Source: Herpomyces periplanetae
Lineage: Eukaryota > Ascomycota > Laboulbeniomycetes > Herpomycetales > Herpomycetaceae
DNA length: 64,000 bases
NCBI GenBank assembly: GCA_009733715.1
Contig: WMKJ01000004.1
Location: forward strand, 62,001-126,000
Direction: 5' to 3'
Shown here: positions 11,901 through 48,224 of the stretch, one piece after another
Layout: every line of letters starts with the position of its first letter
Position numbering within the stretch: the stretch's first letter is position 1
Made by a program: the position numbers and the translations under genes
Notes under the pieces: model-generated
Database searches by the model: none
What the model was told of the DNA's origin: nothing
The model's input: the letters and a program-made list of their open reading frames with translations, nothing else

Positions 11901-12686
11901 TGTTTCCCTCGCCTTGTACGGAAATTTTACCTTGCCGTATTAATTAGTACGCTAATCGTTCGATGCTATGTTCGTACGTGTAATCGTGCCGGAATGTCGC
12001 GTGTCCCAAGTGTTTGGATCATAATTATGATTGAGTGGTTAGGGTATCATAATACTTCATTCCAGGAAAATTCTACTTCCCTACACGATACTACTTCTAC
12101 TCTGCATAATACACACTTAAGCCCTAAGTGTAAACGAGAATCAACTTCATCACAATATTTGTGTGACGATGCCGCAACTTTATTAGCTCGCATTGCTCAT
12201 ACTGTATCAACTTCATCACCGTCCACAAACTCTCCTGTTTGCCCCTATACACGAGGTTGGCATGTACTAAACCGATTTACCCTAGCCGTGCATAAATTAT
12301 CCCGTGAATTAGTTACCGTGAAAGATGATCGCGCTAAACCGCATCATATTTATTCTCACTTTGATTGCCAAAATTTAGCCTCTAGTGCAAGTATATCGTG
12401 TCATACCTCTCAGCTAACTAGCGTACCCCACGTTATCACTTTATTACCACTACACGCCGGTTATACCTTTAGCCTATACGCTAACTCTCACTGTACACGC
12501 TCCACCACCATCACCACTACCACCCATCAATCGCATGCCGGCCTTTCCCATTTACTTGCTTTGCTACCTCGCTCCCTACGCGTAATTAACCTCACCACTC
12601 CCTTAACATCCTGCGTTCACCACACCTGGACCTGGGATGATACTTTGCGCGAATGGATAATCTCTCCTGCTGCTATTACACCTTAA
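8973..12686 (+). CDS. Large protein of unknown function, 1200 aa
   Basis: I rebuild two exons, 8973-9474 and 9586-12686. The frame is broken by a stop at 9537 but resumes in the same frame. The 111-base interval starts GTGAGA and ends gttaactattacag, a good donor, branch site and acceptor, and the split codon is restored. The start is the first ATG of the frame (MAKFSPDIPSWREG). I do not recognise the protein. A basic patch (SRRPSRRIKYSYAGRKRR) lies near residue 200 after splicing. A helical, Cys/Trp-rich middle spans roughly residues 380-700 (LRLTELLRSIVKGTRLIEKY; CCCTCPDD; FRRMAEFYTEKLY). The tail is Ser/Thr/His-rich with predicted helices and no clear membrane segment. There is no catalytic motif I can name. 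The length and unbroken frame over 3 kb make it a real gene. Confidence 0.6.
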
Positions 12687-13030
12687 TTGACCATCCCGTC
12701 CCGTCCATTCCCGTCCCATACATCTCTGCGCACTGCCGCCCTGTGTATCCCACTTTCACGCACGCACGCACGCACACGCACACACGCATGCGCTTTCACT
12801 CTTTGCCTGTGAAACCCGCAACCGCTAACCATTAAATTTCTTCCATTTGACCATTATCCCGCGCGTGTACACATTCGCATACACCCTGCTGGCCACAGTC
12901 TTTCACAAAATCTGCTCCCGCTAAACTATACAAGTCAGTACGCAAGTGCCATAGGAGATGAGCAAATGTGAACCATATCCCGCATCCGCCATCAAAATAT
13001 TTCAACTTGCGCTATACATCACGCAATTAC
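12687..13030. other. Convergent spacer with a CACG repeat
   Basis: This separates the stop codons of two convergent genes. A (CACG/CACA)n microsatellite occupies about 12757-12789. Nothing else is recognisable. Confidence 0.5.
12757..12789 (+). repeat. (CACG)n microsatellite
   Basis: About 33 bases of CACG units shading into CACA, in a convergent 3' spacer. Confidence 0.75.
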
Positions 13031-32419: not shown

Positions 32420-34949
32420 ATGAACAAAATTCGCACTATCTACAAGGTGTTTACTTGATTACATTACATGAACAATGCTTTTCGTCTTTCCCTTTTTTTT
32501 TAACTTTGCTTTTTCATTTTATACACATACACATACGCATATACATTTGTGTTGATGCGTAGATATGTATACCAATCTGAGATGAAATTATTGCGTACTC
32601 TTTCACACATAATTTTATCCATCATGTGCAATTTCACGCTTTCTATTTCTCTTCAGCTTTGGTCGTAACTTTGTACTTGCTTTTCTAATCTTTCCCCATC
32701 CATAATGAAGTTTGTATACTAATAAAACTCGGAAATTTTAGGCTGAAAATGTCGATCTCTGGCGGCATGGCCAACGAGTTAAGGGTACCCTCAACCTTAC
32801 TCCGCACCATTTAATCTTCCTATTCACCACTTCTACTTCTCCATCATCATCTCCAGATCAAAATTGCTCCCTTGATGCTCCTCTCCATCCTCCCCCATGT
32901 GCATCATCGTCAAATTTAGTAGATTACTCCAAGCCAAAACCACGGGACATCTGGATTGCGTATCCTATGATTAATCACTGCACTTTACGCTTATCTCAAT
33001 CATTCACTAGCGCTGGCGCTTCCTCAATTCGGGTACGATGTCGTGATTTTGTGTTTGTCGCTTTTTGCTTTGACGATGAAGTCGATGGTCGTAAAACGTT
33101 TGAAACGCTTAAAGCTCTCACTTGCAACCTAGAGAGCATTGAAAATTTGTATGCATTTTCTTATGAACCCCCTCCCCTGGAACGTGAATACAATGGTTGG
33201 GATGTATTTGACATGCGTCGAGAAATGAACAGAATGGGAATCTCCAATGGCTCTAATCAAACAGCATGGAGAATATCCACAATAAACCAAAATTATGAGC
33301 ATTCACCGACTTATCCGGCCTTGTTGACAGTTCCCAAGTCAATTTCGGACAGTACATTAAATTACGCATTTCGGTATCGATCTAGAGGTCGAATTCCAAT
33401 TTTAACCTATTTGCATCCTGTAAATAGCTGCTCTATTTCTCGAAGTTCACAACCCTTAGTGGGAGTCAGAGGAAATCGGAGTGTGCAAGATGAAAAACTT
33501 GTGTTTGCCATATTTTCAACATCAAAACCAGCTAAAACGGATAATACTAGTACAAACGTATCAAGATTAATGGATGACCAAGGAGAATGTAGTCCACATT
33601 CATCTCCCAAGGTTGATGAAGTGACATGGGATTCAAGTAGTTCGTCGGGCAAAGAGATTGTTTACGGAGCGCAACAAAACAATCTAATCGTTGATGCACG
33701 ACCTAGTGTTAATGCCTACGCTATGCAGGCGATGGGAATGGGGTCAGAGAATATGGATCATTATAAGATTGCAAATAAGATTTACCTCGGAATCGATAGT
33801 ATACATGTAATGCGAGACTCGTACAAAAAGGTTGTGGAAGCTATGAAAGACACGGATTTCACGATAAATTCACCAAATCGAGAACTTTTATTCAAGAGCG
33901 GATGGCTCCGGCATATATCGACGATACTAAATGGTGCGGATATAGTAACGCGCCAGATCGGGATACATCATTCCCATGTATTAATACACTGCTCAGATGG
34001 ATGGGATAGAACTACACAATTAAGTGCATTGAGTCAATTGTGTTTAGACCCGTATTATAGGACGATGAAAGGATTTATGGTATTAGTGGAAAAAGATTGG
34101 CTTTCGTTTGGACACATGTTTAGACGACGTTCGGGATTTTTGAACAGTGAAAAGTGGTTCGAAGTGGAAAATGATAAATTAGCAAGCCCGAAATCAGTAC
34201 CAATGTCAGTATCAGGAATAGGGATAACGGGAGGAAGTTCGGGACGAGTAACAGCAATAGATTCAGCTTTGAATAAGGCTTTATCATTTTTCATGAGAAG
34301 TAATGATGCAAGTGAAACTAATGCTGAAGAAGAGTCCAAATTAGGCAAAAATTGTTGTAGACAGAATATTACGTCTGGAAGTACACGAAGTTTACCAACT
34401 AGAAATCATGCGACAGTAGTAAAGGATACAAGTCCAATATTCCATCAGTTCTTGGACGCAACTTATCAAATTCTTGTGCAGCATCCAACACGATTCGAAT
34501 TCAACGAACGATTTTTAAGAAGATTGCTCTATCATTTGTATTCATGTCAATATGGAACATTTTTGTTCGACAGTGAAAAAGAGCGAGAAGAAGAGAAAGC
34601 AAGGGAGAGAACACGAAGTGTTTGGGATTACTTTTTAAGTCGAAAGCAACAATTTTTGAATGAAAATTTTGACGAAGTAATTGATGACACTGATCGGAAT
34701 AGAGAAAGAATTATATTTCCCAGGCCGAATGAAGTACGATGGTGGGCTGAAGTATTCGGATGTACGGATGCCGAAATGAATTTGGATTCCAAGGGTAAAA
34801 TTACTTTAACATCGCTCAATGGAAGTGGCAATAATGGAACTGATAACAGGGATGATAAACGGGAGGTGACTATGAATGTCATGACTAGCACTATGCAAGA
34901 CGTCTGGGGCTCCCGAAGTACGTTAAGTGAAAATCAGCCGATTGATTAA
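32420..34949 (+). CDS. ymr1: Myotubularin-family phosphoinositide 3-phosphatase, 744 aa
   Basis: Removes the 3-phosphate from PI3P and PI(3,5)P2 on endosomal and vacuolar membranes. Exon 1, 32420-32446 (MNKIRTIYK), is tentative. The intron starts GTGTTT and ends tactaataaaactcggaaattttag. Exon 2, 32742-34949, is firm: its frame opens at the acceptor with AENVDLWRHGQRVKGTLNLT, the start of the PH-GRAM domain. The catalytic domain contains the CX5R motif IHCSDGWDRTTQLSAL with Cys426 and Arg432, preceded by SGWLRHISTILNGA and followed by LVEKDWLSFGHMFRRRSG and FHQFLDATYQILVQHP. Two Ser/Asn-rich inserts occur near residues 230-320 and 460-560. All catalytic residues visible are intact, so it should be active. 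Only the first nine residues are doubtful. Confidence 0.9.
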
Positions 34950-36430: not shown

Positions 36431-38704
36431 ATGTCACAACGCTCCACGGGTAAAATCTCGAGGCGTTCAGATCCTCCACCTCCCTCAAATTCAAGATATG
36501 CCTCTGAAGCCTCATCAAATCAAACATCAAGTTCATTATTCTCACCTCCAACTGTCACTGCCCCTCCCTCTGCCTCACCTTCGGCTCAATCTGCGACAAC
36601 TAGACCTTCGGCTCCTTTCCTTCAAATGGCTTCGGGTGGAATAACTATCGATCTAAGTCCAATGATACCCACTACTCATACAATCGATGAAATCCCTAGT
36701 ATTCTAGCTAGCTTGGGAACTTATATTTCGCCTGAAGAAGCTCAAGCTGCCCGTGTACGCTACTTTGAACGTCTTCGAAATCCTCCTAAACCCAGACCCC
36801 CAACACCCCCCCCAAAACCAGGTGCCAATGCCCCTCCTCCTCTTGAACCCCCTTCCGTTCAAGATGTTATTCGTTACCGTTATCACTTTGGCGTTAATTT
36901 ATCCTCTGTTTACGTTCTTGTTAGACTATTGTCGCCTCATATGTTTCCATCATCTGCCGTCGGTGATAGTGAACTTTCTGCCGCTTATGCTTGGGTACAA
37001 GAAATTGGCTTAAAAGAAACTCGTGAAAAGTTCGAGCATCATTGGGCAAATTCAGTTACGGATGATGATATAAAGTTTCTCGTCACAAAAACTCACTGTA
37101 AGTATTCTGTCCATTTCCTTTCCATCTTTCCCTCTACCTTATTCTCAACCCTTTTCCCCTCCCTTACCTTACAACCTGTATTACTTCCCTTACTCTCCCA
37201 CCCTCTACTTCACACCTCCGCACTATTACCCGGGGAAAATAATAATAATACTTTCTTTGACATTTTTTTGCCATTTTCATATTACATGCTGTACCTTACG
37301 TCTTCCTATTGGATATTGGGATCTTGGGCCCTCATTTTGCGAAAATACACCGTTTGAATGCGTTGCAGGAGTATACGTTAATGCGTGGACTATGATCAAA
37401 TCCTTCATTGCTCGTTGCTACGAAAATGGTATGGGCGTGCTTATCGATTTACATGGATTACCCGGTGGTGCAAACATACATGAACATTCTGGCATAAGTA
37501 CCAAAAAATCCGAATTTTGGTCTAATCCTATCTACCGACAAATCGCTCTTCGTTGTATAACAACAATTGCAACCGAAGTACGAGATGGCATTGAAGGGGT
37601 TATCGGTATTCAAATTGTGAACGAAGCTTCTCCTAAAAGTTACAAAATGCTCGAATTTTATGAAGAATGCGTCGTAGCAGCTTCGCAGATCGATTGTACA
37701 ATACCTTTATACGTTTCTGATGCATGGGACTTGAAAGAAGCTGTTGAATTCACCTCCGAAAGAAATTCTCTTGGATACTACGATCGAGTTCCCATATGTA
37801 TTGATACCCATCGTTATTTTTGCTTTTCAGACGCGCATAGAAAAATGAACGCTGCCCAAATTGCGGATGAAGCGGGAAAGTGTATGGAAGAGATCCTGGA
37901 AAAAAGTGGCAACGTTGTCGCTCATGGCGCATACCAAGTTTACGTTGGTGAATATAGTTGCTCATTATCCGAGGACACTTGGCGACTTAGCAAAGGTAGT
38001 CGAGCAATGCTATTGCACAATTTTGGACTTCAGCAAACAGCTCGTTGGCTACAACTTACATGCGGTTCAGCTTTCTGGACTTTTACCAAAGTATGTACGA
38101 TTAAATTACCTTGAAAATTGCTAAAAGTCAGAAAAGAAAATTATGGTAATCGTTTATCCAGTTCAGCTAACCATGTTTAACCTTAAATTAGCTCCGGCCT
38201 AGTGGATGGAACTTTGTCACCCAATTTGAGTTAGGTAACCTTAACCGACCAGAAAGTATCACTTTACCCCCATCAGAAGTTATGAAACGGCGTGATCATG
38301 CGTTAGCAATGCGACACTCAAAACTTGAAGAATCATATAAAGCTCACAAGAATATGTGGGTGCGGAACGTTTCAGCTCATTCATCTATTTTTGAACGTTA
38401 CAAAGCGGGTTATGATCAAGGTTATATGGATCAACTTGCATTTTTCAGTATGCGAGCTGCACGTTTAGTTCCTAGTCCAATGGGGTTCGGTGCAGATACA
38501 ATTGGATGTTCGGAAATATGGATTCTTAAACGTTTGCGGGAATTTTGCGTAATTAATCGATATACACACAAAGTTCCAAAGATAAATGAACGTCACGCTG
38601 CACCTTGGATTCCAACGGATCCGGCAATTTTCGTTTGGGAATTTGAGTTGGGTATGCGCAAGGGCATGGAAGAATGTTTGCGCGCTTGCAAACTAATTGG
38701 ATAA
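36431..38704 (+). CDS. exg3: GH5 glucan 1,3-beta-glucosidase, non-secreted (Exg3-like), 659 aa
   Basis: Hydrolyses beta-1,3-glucan ends; the Exg3 branch in fission yeast is intracellular. Three exons: 36431-37097, 37291-38090 and 38192-38704. The first 180 residues are Ser/Pro-rich with a PPKPRPPTPPPKPG run and no signal peptide. The barrel shows TLRLPIGYWDLGP, the acid/base Glu in IQIVNEAS, and the nucleophile Glu in YVGEYSCSL. SAFWTFTK joins LRPSGWNFVTQFELG across intron 2 (GTATGT...TTAG). The C-terminal extension (YKAGYDQGYMDQLAFF, then IGCSEIWILKRL) is typical of the cytosolic branch. Intron 1 has a perfect GTAAGT donor but no AG acceptor; the frame closes exactly if 193 bases between CTGTA repeats are removed. 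An upstream in-frame ATG at 36338 adds a hydrophobic stretch, but I judge it leader. Confidence 0.85.
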
Positions 38705-39130: not shown

Positions 39131-40948
39131 TTAAGATGAAGATAATGACGATGTAGAACGTTTAGCAAGTCCAGAAAAGAAAGACACTAAATCATTCGAA
39201 GCCGTGCTATCAGATTCACTCAGCGCAGACTGACGATCCCCTACCGTGACAGCGCAATAGGCAGGAGAAGGCACTGTTGACGATTGACCCACAGGCGGGG
39301 TTACTACAGCAACAGGCTCGGGATTAGGGTTAGGGTTTGGTGTGGCGCAGTGGGGATGTGGCGGTGCATCGTTTCCGTTCTGATCGATGGGAGGAGTTGG
39401 CGTAGATGTAGGTGTTGGAGTAAGGTTGGCGCTGGGAGGGTATGGTAGGGAGTTCTGACGAAGGGGATCAGGTCGATCGAAGGTTTGAAGGTGTTCGAGA
39501 ACTTTGAGCTGCGATTCCAGAAATGTTTGGTACGCCGGAGCGTGTAATTCAATGCCGGGAGGTGCGTCAGTATGTAAGGTAACCACGGGGTACGTTAACG
39601 ACGATGGTTGTTGAATATGTTGTTCGTAAAACGTAACAGCACTATTACCAACATTATCATCACCATTATCCGATTGAACACTACTCAACGATGTTGCGGG
39701 TAAAGTCTCATCACATAATTGAAGATCACGAGACCATGCTTTGCTAACTGATTCAACGTCAAAACCGTCGCGCAATACACGGATTTTCCCCCAAGAATCC
39801 CAATTGGGGGGGATGCAAACACGATCTCGATCAATAACATTGTGTCGAAGTGGACGTTCTTTGCGCACTACATCACGTATACCGAGCATAGCTTGAATAA
39901 CATCACGTATAGGAGATTGAGTTAAACCGGGTGATGCACCGGCTGATGAAGGGGTCGTTGGTGAAGGAGGTTGAAGGGAAGTGGGTAAATTACCAGTATG
40001 GGGTGTATGGGGTGTATAAACGAGGGCAGCACCGTGCCTCAGTAAAATTGTACGAAGGGTTTGCAACACAAAGTCGAACTCAGTTTCACTCCATCCACGC
40101 TCCTTTGCCAAGGTATCGATCACATGAGTATTTTGTGCAACAACGCATAACGGTAGTGCTAAAGGAACATCCCATTCTCCAGGACCGAGTGGTGTAGGTA
40201 CATCATCCACGGCGGATGATGCTGTAGATGAGTCCCACGTAGTACATCGAGCACGACGTTTCCATGCTTCAATATTAGCATCGATACGCGCTTCACAATC
40301 ACGCGGTAAATTGTGCCTAAGTTGTCGTATGAAGCGTATCCACGCGCGAAGTTCACGTAACCATAACCAAGGTTTACTCCAGTCTAATAGGCAAACGATT
40401 AACGAATCTTCCACCGGACAGCGTAACAGAAATGTACGTGCTAGATCACAAAAGCCTGCATTAGGCTCACGGAGAAAGTAAAAGGATAGACGAGCGAAAA
40501 CGTCATCTTCACCATCGATATCAGTTTCGTGAAAGTTAACGTACGTATAACCCAAGGCAAATTTATTAGCGATAGGCGGTCGTTCAGTGTATACATCATG
40601 TGAATGGGAGTGCACACGAACGTGGCCTTGTGTATTGGTTCCTCCGCTACCCGCTGTGACTACTTCATCGACTTGGGCTTCGGGCACGTTTAAACAACGT
40701 ACAAAAGCCTCCTGTTGTCGATTCGTACCACCCAGGACGAGGATATATTTTTGCGTTAACTGTTTTGACGTTGAAACTTGTGCCAGTATAGACGTCCACA
40801 AATCCGGCACCGTAATATTATTCGATTGACTTGTTGTCGTTGCCGTTACTGCACTGCTACCGGCCTTAGCATCTGTGACCACGCATCCCAATTCAATCGG
40901 CCGCGTACCCGTTCCATTACCACCCATGTCTAATGCATGTAAACTCAT
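39131..40948 (-). CDS. Cytoplasmic dynein light intermediate chain, 605 aa
   Basis: Links the dynein heavy chain to cargo adaptors for nuclear and endosome transport along hyphae. One exon. The Ras-like fold is visible from about residue 45 (VPDLWTSILAQVSTSKQLTQ, then KYILVLGGTNRQQEAFVRCL) through KFALGYTYVNFHETD, LIVCLLDWSKPW and LPLCVVAQNTHVIDTLAKER to LRHGAALVYT. The P-loop position reads LGGTNRQQ, lacking the GK[ST] of a nucleotide-binding loop. The C-terminal half is disordered and Pro-rich. It ends with a short amphipathic helix, NDLVSFFSGLAKR, that resembles the metazoan LIC effector helix with its paired Phe. It diverges from IST3 across a 320-base promoter. Confidence 0.85.
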   Translation of the reverse strand: MSLHALDMGGNGTGTRPIELGCVVTDAKAGSSAVTATTTSQSNNITVPDLWTSILAQVSTSKQLTQKYILVLGGTNRQQEAFVRCLNVPEAQVDEVVTAGSGGTNTQGHVRVHSHSHDVYTERPPIANKFALGYTYVNFHETDIDGEDDVFARLSFYFLREPNAGFCDLARTFLLRCPVEDSLIVCLLDWSKPWLWLRELRAWIRFIRQLRHNLPRDCEARIDANIEAWKRRARCTTWDSSTASSAVDDVPTPLGPGEWDVPLALPLCVVAQNTHVIDTLAKERGWSETEFDFVLQTLRTILLRHGAALVYTPHTPHTGNLPTSLQPPSPTTPSSAGASPGLTQSPIRDVIQAMLGIRDVVRKERPLRHNVIDRDRVCIPPNWDSWGKIRVLRDGFDVESVSKAWSRDLQLCDETLPATSLSSVQSDNGDDNVGNSAVTFYEQHIQQPSSLTYPVVTLHTDAPPGIELHAPAYQTFLESQLKVLEHLQTFDRPDPLRQNSLPYPPSANLTPTPTSTPTPPIDQNGNDAPPHPHCATPNPNPNPEPVAVVTPPVGQSSTVPSPAYCAVTVGDRQSALSESDSTASNDLVSFFSGLAKRSTSSLSSS

Positions 40949-41268
40949 GATGGCCAGCCTGGGCGCATACGCTACTTAGTATGGTTTGAGAATTGGAGGG
41001 GGAAAACTTGAAAAGAATGTTGAAAATGTTTTCCGCTCAACCCTAATTTGTACCGCCACATTTCATGTGCCCAGCTTAGATAAGACACCGTAGTCAAAGT
41101 CGAAGCAATCTTCAAGCAACAAATTTTGAAAAAGTTCACCATCACGGAAAAACGTCCTGGAAATTCGACATGACTCGTACACATCACTAGTGAAAACAAT
41201 GACGCTAGTTCCACTCCGGGCGGATGCGTAGATATGCATGATAGTGAATAAATTTAGGGCAAAGCGAC
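40949..41268. promoter_or_regulatory. Divergent promoter, dynein LIC / IST3
   Basis: A 320-base spacer between two divergent start codons. It is less AT-rich than neighbouring spacers and has no further gene. Confidence 0.45.
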
Positions 41269-45305: not shown

Positions 45306-48224
45306 CTAATCCTCTGTAATATCACCGTACTCCCAACAACCACGACGTCCATCTCGTGCCACAACTTCAATTGTTCGTAATGTTTCAAACACAGCAGCAT
45401 ATCCCCGTTCCCATCCTTTCATACGCTTGGGTACAATTGCAAGTCCTTCTTCAACCATTTCGGCGTTTACACTTTTCTGTATACAGCCTTTATCCGTACA
45501 TTGAGTTCTGTACAATGTTACATATAATAAAGGACCTCCAGATGATCCTGGACCAGTAACGTTTTCTTCATGTTCAATTCCAGCAATATATTCCCGACCA
45601 CAAACTCGATCTTGAATCCAGTTTGTCACATCTTGTGTATAATCACCTCCGGGAAACTGTATAAAGGCAAACTTTGCATTCTGAGCTTGCGCTTTCAGCT
45701 TTGAAAGATTAAAATCGCTGGACAGAGGTCTTAAATCCGTCCATACTAAATTTTCACAATTACCATAGTCAATATACTCAACATCTGCTCTTTGTTTTTC
45801 ACGATCTACCCATCTCACCCTAGCTCGATACCAACAATCATCCTCGGAAAATTTGGCTGATACTAATTCTCCAACTTTGGGTGGTGCCGTTAATCCTTTT
45901 TTTCCCGCCGGTGAAATGTGAAACGAAGCAAACGAGGACATAAGTGATGTTAACGCCGTCGTTCCCGCTCCTATAATCTGTAACTTGAATCTTCCATCTT
46001 GTTCGTCAAATGATGTAATAGTTACACGCTGGAATTCCGTTTTTGTGGTTCCAGCCCCTTCAGTGTTACCATTAACTGCTGAACCATCACCACTTTCTGT
46101 GCCGTTTACTTCTTGATCCGCACCTCTACCATTGTTCCGCTCTTCTTCTTTGCTCGGATCCCAGTCATGCCACAGACCTTTACGCTCTGCTTTTGCCTTA
46201 CTTTCTGCAGCAAAAAACTCATTCGCAAATCCACTCTTTTCCGCCGAGTAAGCGTGTACCTTCGCCAATCCTTCTTCCAATAAAATTTTGGCAAAATTTT
46301 CCCCATTTACCCATATAACTCCAATAAATCCTCCAACTTTATCACAATCTTCAATGTCTAATGTTACATCTCGCTGTAAACATCGTCGATTTGCAAAATC
46401 CAATGCTTGCATGCCAAACGGTTCGCTCTTTTCTTCCGGATTTCTTGCTGCACGAGGTGCTCTAATTCCAGATAATACTAATGTAAGCCGTGCGTTTTCT
46501 CGAGGAATCAATATGGAAAATCGACTCCCAGACTTTGCAAAATCCACTATAGCTGGTATCTTTCTCTGCCGACTAAGAATTGTCAAATGTCGTTTAGCCT
46601 TTTCCAAACTTTCGCTACTATCCATATACTTGGGAATAGATGGTGCTTTGTTTCCCCACATCCCTTTCCCTTCCGCTTGCGCTGCCGCTTCTGATCGCAA
46701 AAGTTCATCGTAAATAGGTGATCGATCACTATCATCCGCTCGATGTCGAATTACTGAAGCGTAACCATTTTCCACCAAAAGTAATGCTATATTTTTGCTG
46801 TTTAACGTTACCGATACCATATCTCTTTCCTCAAATCCATCCGTAGCCGGTCTTCGAGCTATAAACGTAACTTTAACATGTTTGCCTATCAATCTTTTAC
46901 GGAGAAATTCTTTCGCCTCAACACTCCATCCTGCTTGCTTAGGATCTGACGGTTTAGGCTGTCGAATACTACTCAAACTAATACGTCTTTCCCCATCTGC
47001 CTTTGTTCGAACATACAATGTATCCGCATTGATAATCCGACTAACAATCATATCCTGTTCAACCGTACTATTTTTTGATGCCACATGATCCTTAAAAAGT
47101 CCCTTTTTATTCTCTTTGGCAAACTTTTCCGCTTGACGTAATTTACTCATTTCCGCCCCCAGCAAGGTAGAATGATAATCTGTGCATCGAGCCAGACCTT
47201 CCTTTAGAATAAATGGTGCAATGCTACCTTGTACAGGATGACTGACCGAGCCGACTAACTGATCTTGAGGATTTATGCCCAAAATCATAACGCTGACATT
47301 TCTTTGTAGCAAGCGCACTTCCACAAAATTATGTGATTCTTCTGCAAACGGTTCCGCTGCTCGTTCTACCCCTTTAGCTATATCAATTCGCTTAGTCGTA
47401 GGCGCTCTAACTCCCGCTATCAACAAAATAGTTTGAACATGATGCGTCGGCGATAGTATTAGTCTAACCACCAAGCGATCACCGCTCAACACCTTTTCCA
47501 CAATGGCTGCACTTGTCAGCCCTATACCCTACGTTTAATTAACGACTCGTTTCACTTACCTTCCATAACTTGTCCTTTACGAGAATCTACAAACTCTTGA
47601 ATATTCATAATATCGTATTGAGTAGTTACCCATTCCCGAGTTTTGGAGTATTGACCTCTATTCTCATTTATCGCGATTGATTGAGCATCTTTCAAGCGTT
47701 GAACCATGGCATGAAGGTCTTCCGTTTCATCCCGCTTAATTGCATCTTCACGAAGTTTAACCCAGCCTTCGGCAATGCAAAGTTCCGGAACAGATGGACC
47801 ACCCGGTAGAATGATTACACCGTACTCACGTTTCGTCGTAGTTTTTACCGTGTACAAAACGCGAAAAGTGACCACTTTACCCACGAGTAATCGTCTCAAA
47901 AAGTCGCGAGATTCAAAAGCGTAAGGCTACCCCCTCAAATGTAGAAATTAGCAGCATATACTATTGTATTCAAAAATTGTCCTTCACCCACGCTCACCTG
48001 CCCGTGCATACACGCCCATACCGACACCACGCTAAATGTTTAAACAAGCAAAATCATCCTTGTTAAATAAAATGCTAACCTACCTCATCGCCATCACGTC
48101 GAAGTCTTGGGGCGTTGACAAACGCTAAGCTTAACGTGCGCTCAAGTTGTGGTTTGTGCATACTGTGCAAAACCACAGTATCACCAGAGAGAACAGATTT
48201 AACCTTAGCTTGACACACTGCCAT
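45306..48224 (-). CDS. SND1: Tudor-staphylococcal nuclease protein (SND1/Tudor-SN), 902 aa
   Basis: RNA-binding scaffold of RNA granules, translation and splicing. Three exons: 48224 to about 48085, 47926-47560 and 47506-45306. The introns are GTAGGT...GGTAG and a very short GTAAGT...GTGCAG of 53 bases. Exon 1 codes MAVCQAKVKSVLSGDTVVLH and ends RRDGDE, joining PYAFESRDFLRRLLVGKVV. Four SN-like repeats follow, with VLSGDRLVVRLIL and GVRAPTTKRID in the second. Then come the Tudor domain (KVGELVSAKFSEDDCWYRAR, VEYIDYGN) and a terminal partial SN domain. SN active-site residues seem degenerate in several repeats, which is usual. The length matches fungal orthologues. It diverges from the histidinol-phosphatase gene across 1 kb. 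Confidence 0.94.

Follow-up and report, generated by a model that had tools for sequence, protein, structure and literature searches.

The first intron of a gene predicted to encode an exg3-type GH5 enzyme (36431-38704, + strand; positions are those of the window, the whole 64,000-nucleotide stretch of Herpomyces periplanetae DNA analysed here) is normal in look except for its last base, which is T in place of G. Homologous proteins fix the boundary with exon 2, the donor matches the consensus, and AG is absent from the expected acceptor. The T at 37287 is probably real, marking either an acceptor-loss allele or a working CAU acceptor in a GT-AT intron of U2 type; we infer that one substitution, recent and in the strain sequenced, cost the intron its AG. 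The window lies within a 246-kb contig (C165) of an assembly of 13.8 Mb in 220 contigs, and the parts of the gene are as follows.

36431..37097, + strand: exon 1, from the ATG to ...KTH and the first base of a Cys codon (open frame, 120-homolog alignment)
37098..37287, + strand: intron 1, 190 nt, GTAAGT...TTACAT (GT-AT), placed by homolog spacing, profile score and donor position weight matrix (PWM)
37098..37103, + strand: 5' splice site GTAAGT (sequence, donor PWM)
37257..37261, + strand: branch-site candidate TTGAC (sequence), with its A at 37260 and the end of the intron 27 nt further on
37262..37284, + strand: U-rich tract from the branch candidate to the 3' end (sequence)
37285..37287, + strand: CAT in place of the canonical CAG, putative 3' splice site (sequence, AG-masked acceptor PWM)
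37288..38090, + strand: exon 2, ..CTLRLPIGYW.. to ..FWTFTK, holding both catalytic Glu
38091..38191, + strand: intron 2, canonical GTATGT...TTAG (assembly of the coding sequence; tabulated with the genome introns)
38192..38704, + strand: exon 3 and stop (assembly of the coding sequence, conserved columns)
37367..37371, + strand: first AGs downstream, at 37367-37368 (followed at once by TGA) and at 37370-37371 (frame kept, RLPIGYW lost)

As the earlier note had read it, exon 1 ends at a GTAAGT donor (37098-37103) and no AG occurs from 37103 to 37365, so that the RLPIGYW segment is out of reach of any canonical acceptor; its central claim, that a GH5 gene has an intron lacking an AG acceptor, is thereby supported. 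The next AGs stand at 37367-37368, which as an acceptor brings an immediate stop, and at 37370-37371, which removes RLPIGYW and yields only 500.2 bits on a profile built from homologs alone. We located the junction by counting the residues from an anchor Trp to the motif R[LIV]P[IVL]G in the best 120 of 213 GH5 homologs, aligned to the version of the query from which 193 nt had been removed. This spacing is 21 in 116 of the 119 anchored homologs; among the other four of the 120 it is 20 in two (one of which also matches at 17) and 24 in one, and one lacks the pattern. The GH5 query has a spacing of 21 when 190 nt are removed and 20 when 193 nt are removed, and from the GTAAGT donor a 190-nt removal is the only one that gives 21, placing intron 1 at 37098-37287. 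Profile scores agree with this placement (578.1 bits for 190 nt, 572.4 for 187 and 572.3 for 193), and the resulting coding sequence of 1983 bases has one terminal stop. The 193-base removal proposed earlier does close a coding sequence of 1980 bases, but its junction is not supported, being one residue short of 116/119 anchored homologs and 5.8 bits below the 190-nt junction. Shifting the 190-nt interval by one base, to 37097-37286 (TG-CA) or 37099-37288 (TA-TG), leaves the product identical, and the GT-AT placement was chosen over these shifts because it uses the consensus donor.

A single exon or a long low-complexity insertion was rejected, as the 120 homologs in the alignment show no long insertion at this point, and a micro-exon within the interval is impossible with canonical sites because there is no AG inside. 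The AG-free run is notable because the conserved exon 2 segment starts inside it and it covers the obligatory acceptor; length alone is not rare, as the window holds four AG-to-AG gaps of at least 266 nt on both strands, the GH5 gap included. At 12471-12897 (+) the distance from one AG to the next is 426 nt, longer than in the GH5 gene. The frames of exon 1 and exon 2 are both open across the whole intron (37074-37357), and gene prediction based on frames might therefore take intron 1 for coding sequence.

Apart from its last base, intron 1 resembles the other introns of this genome. The donor scores 9.25 on a PWM on which 40 genome introns have a median of 8.17 (range 3.5 to 12.2; G at +5 in 39/40), and beats 26 of them. 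On an acceptor PWM with the AG masked, 37287 beats 34/40 real acceptors, compared with 31/40 for 37291 and 9/40 for 37290. Seven upstream positions in or after the U-tract outscore 37287, and none of them gives the homolog spacing with the GTAAGT donor. The intron is 190 nt long (40 tabulated introns, 59-218), and its pyrimidine content, which the earlier note had called extreme, is indeed high at 0.73 but falls within the range of the tabulated introns (0.42-0.76). Nor does the intron lack a candidate branch site, although no clear one had been noted: TTGAC at 37257-37261, a permissive motif that is common by chance, lies 27 nt upstream of the end and is followed by the U-rich CATTTTTTTGCCATTTTC. 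A similar 3' architecture with a normal AG is found in a chaperonin intron (L014, G000:C46, 168694-168811), which ends TTTGAC...ATATTACAG where GH5 intron 1 ends CTTTGAC...ATATTACAT; the TTGAC of the chaperonin intron is 22 nt from its end and is one of several candidates there.

The AG that ends U2-type introns is missing from intron 1, and the boundaries at the protein-defined junction are GT...AT, which puts it in the GT-AT class on genomic sequence. U12-type donors read A/GTATCCTT. The donor of intron 1, GTAAGTAT, does not fit this pattern, and a U6atac search of the genome, run without a working control genome, gave no match.

To set intron 1 against its genome, introns were placed from chaperonin, actin, HSP70, sugar-transporter, U2AF35, Ras and proteasome matches. 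A frame-consistent GT-AG solution exists for all 46 other placed introns, GH5 intron 2 included. The 46 comprise the 40 tabulated introns (with GH5 intron 2), one each in L081 and L085, and two each in L087 and C143. Gaps were solved with GT-AG alone permitted, and those for which the script found no solution were judged by eye (15/46 boundaries: four in C143, two each in C149, L070, L072 and L087, and one each in L065, L080 and L081); eight scripted boundaries miss the spacing of the profile, in each case by one codon or two. Outside the count are L084, L086 and L088, gaps without a stop that were read as coding insertions, the gaps C156 and C133 from the actin matches and C200 from the chaperonin matches, and any introns inside single matches, some with stops. 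Several profile matches in the genome hold in-frame stops. By the rule of three, 46/46 limits the use of non-AG acceptors to roughly 6.5% at most, which argues against a genome-wide change but leaves room for a rare exception. Relaxed use of AG across the genome was rejected on this count, with no instance among the 46 placed introns, and loss of 3' splice-site fidelity factors was rejected because U2AF35-like, Prp18 and Fyv6-like gene matches are all present.

The protein that depends on this junction has 213 homologs, and the name glucan 1,3-beta-glucosidase 3 is attached to several; the best is 41% identical and comes from filamentous Ascomycota. Identity reaches at most 45%, over 67% of the query, among the 120 best of the 213, so the GH5 protein is without a close relative in the protein collection. 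Its leading homologs, like those of an SND1-like nuclease in the window (best match 59% identity, filamentous Ascomycota), presumably belong to the class Dothideomycetes. Solved exo-1,3-beta-glucanases match the protein with a best E of 8.9e-15. Pfam Cellulase (PF00150) scores 21.1 bits on the full protein, below the curated cut-off of 23.5, and the three exon pieces searched separately hit no Pfam family at E 0.001; a precomputed Cellulase domain is also missing from some of the GH5 homologs listed. Glu335 and Glu444, the presumed catalytic acid/base and nucleophile of the GH5 family, are present, each being Glu in 120/120 homologs. Among columns with one residue common to at least 114/120 homologs, exon 2 keeps 51/52, exon 1 keeps 8/11 (three changed) and exon 3 keeps 18/24 (six changed). 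Exon 2, with 51/52 columns and both catalytic Glu retained, is therefore without sign of long decay.

Near-invariant residues are changed in exon 1 (G158S, E164V and W166L), with the catalytic Glu pair kept, and near the boundary of exons 2 and 3 (W491L, G494S and G497N). This divergence of exons 1 and 3 at positions the family keeps could reflect an altered substrate pocket or a relaxation of constraint. The protein shares with exg3-type GH5 enzymes of filamentous Ascomycota homology over the searched region and the catalytic Glu pair, but differs at several near-invariant exon 1 and exon 3 positions and in its sub-threshold Cellulase match. A paralog or second allele was sought by DNA search, which found one copy of the gene in the assembly; apart from that copy, the protein matches just one GH5 there, at 27% identity. 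Relatives were also sought in viral contigs, where three stretches fit a pattern and none was confirmed.

We tentatively favour an allele that has lost its acceptor and is spliced poorly, in part at CAU. An ordinary U2-type spliceosomal intron at 37098-37287 would have CAT for CAG at its 3' end, and its first splicing step should run normally. The second step, with no AG for 79 nt past the protein-defined end, would have to use CAU, the choice that preserves the frame, or a nearby AUG or CUG, either of which breaks the frame when paired with the GTAAGT donor. The bulk of the transcripts would then be slow, retained (with a stop after about 308 codons) or misjoined, and some would give the correct product. 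An efficient, constitutive CAU 3' splice site, used by a wild-type fungal spliceosome with Prp18 and U2AF35, seems doubtful; such a site would be supported by nothing but the donor, the branch-site candidate and the U-tract, with no competing AG for about 80 nt.

GT-AT introns are known but rare in the literature consulted. Across 130 fungal genomes the mean share of GT-AG introns is reported as 98.7%, and that of 'others', which are neither GC-AG nor AT-AC, as 0.257% (PMC7072748); a study of human fungal pathogens counts GT-AT among its 'others' (PMC6176087). The figure given for Ganoderma lingzhi is 18 GT-AT introns of about 92,000, or 0.0195% (PMC11590231). Fourteen are reported as annotated in Drosophila melanogaster, 11 with RNA-seq junctions, and a similar alternative splice is described for 14/14 (PMC4528330). 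Intron 1 shares with these rare introns a GT donor and an AT end, one base from GT-AG. It differs in that no AG lies between the donor's own and a point 79 nt past the site, whereas all 14 Drosophila introns have the similar alternative splice.

Yeast supplies a mechanistic parallel. Without Prp18, its spliceosome is reported to use BG and HAU 3' splice sites, among which CAU and UAU are the most efficient non-G sites and poly(U) tracts help; CAU (NYV1), AUG (MUD1) and CUG (MAF1) sites were confirmed by RT-PCR, and such sites are described as appearing when Prp18, the recruitment of Prp18 by Slu7, the contact between Prp18 and Prp8 or proofreading by Prp22 is impaired (PMC10711555). Intron 1 likewise presents CAU behind a U-rich tract. 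The sites in prp18 mutants compete with a normal AG, however, whereas here a Prp18 match is present and no AG is nearby.

Several observations stand against the GT-AT reading. They include the Prp18 match, the seven positions that outscore 37287 on the AG-masked acceptor PWM, the distance of even the best homologs, and the conserved columns changed in exons 1 and 3. In addition, the column that removal of 37098-37287 turns into Cys holds Thr 97 times, Asn 20 times, Ala twice and Ser once among the 120 homologs and never Cys, and one other pair of sites, considered below, is slightly ahead on the homolog profile.

An error in the consensus or assembly, the organism itself having a normal AG at 37286-37287 and an ordinary intron, is unlikely and still has to be reckoned with. 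It would account for the intact catalytic exon and for GT-AG in 46/46 other placed introns, and the sole placement that combines a good donor with homolog spacing is also one base off AG.

A cut at GTATTC (37102) joined to a 3' end at CTG (37291) would make a 190-nt GT-TG intron giving KTHCNTLRLPIGYW. Its profile score is the one slightly ahead, at 579.7 versus 578.1, because it puts Asn instead of Cys at the column just described, and TG acceptors are recorded (PMC11590231, PMC4528330). We nevertheless consider it improbable on account of its poor donor, which scores -3.69, under all 40 real donors, and lacks G at +5.

It is more improbable again that the intron stays in the transcript, or that exon 1 is spliced to the AG at 37371, and that functional enzyme is not made. 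The nearest AGs are the two noted above, that at 37371 is in frame, and the exon 1 frame runs open through the intron to 37357. However, the 37371 product is short of RLPIGYW and 78 profile bits, the 37368 join ends at once in a stop, and the gene has kept its catalytic residues.

The chance that 193 nt were inserted between target duplications, as had been suggested from CTGTA direct repeats that do lie at 37096-37100 and 37289-37293 and between which a 193-base removal does close the frame, is negligible: the idea falls with the 193-nt junction, which leaves 20 residues and has an acceptor (37290) that beats only 9/40, and the repeat is at chance level, with 12/21 GTAAGT sites in the window having a comparable one (a 5-mer overlapping GTAAGT that recurs 150-240 nt downstream). 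The weights we give to the acceptor-loss allele, the efficient CAU site, the consensus error and the small remainder rest on rough rates.

Should the T be real and the intron be spliced, this gene would offer a clean natural test of exon ligation without AG by a normal spliceosome, as its catalytic exon is intact, homologs fix its junction and there is no competing AG close by. If the T is an error or the allele is damaged, the case is ordinary and serves only as a warning that gene predictors will misannotate the GH5 gene.

The neighbours of the gene are a myotubularin-like phosphatase (32742-34949, +), a dynein light intermediate chain (39131-40975, -) and the SND1-like nuclease (45309-47528, -). 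Elsewhere in the genome, a sugar-transporter gene (L061, G000:C143, 163537-163712) has an apparent 10-nt micro-exon between GT-AG introns of 92 and 106 nt, which when joined reads ..DLTGMNVMMYYITYIF..
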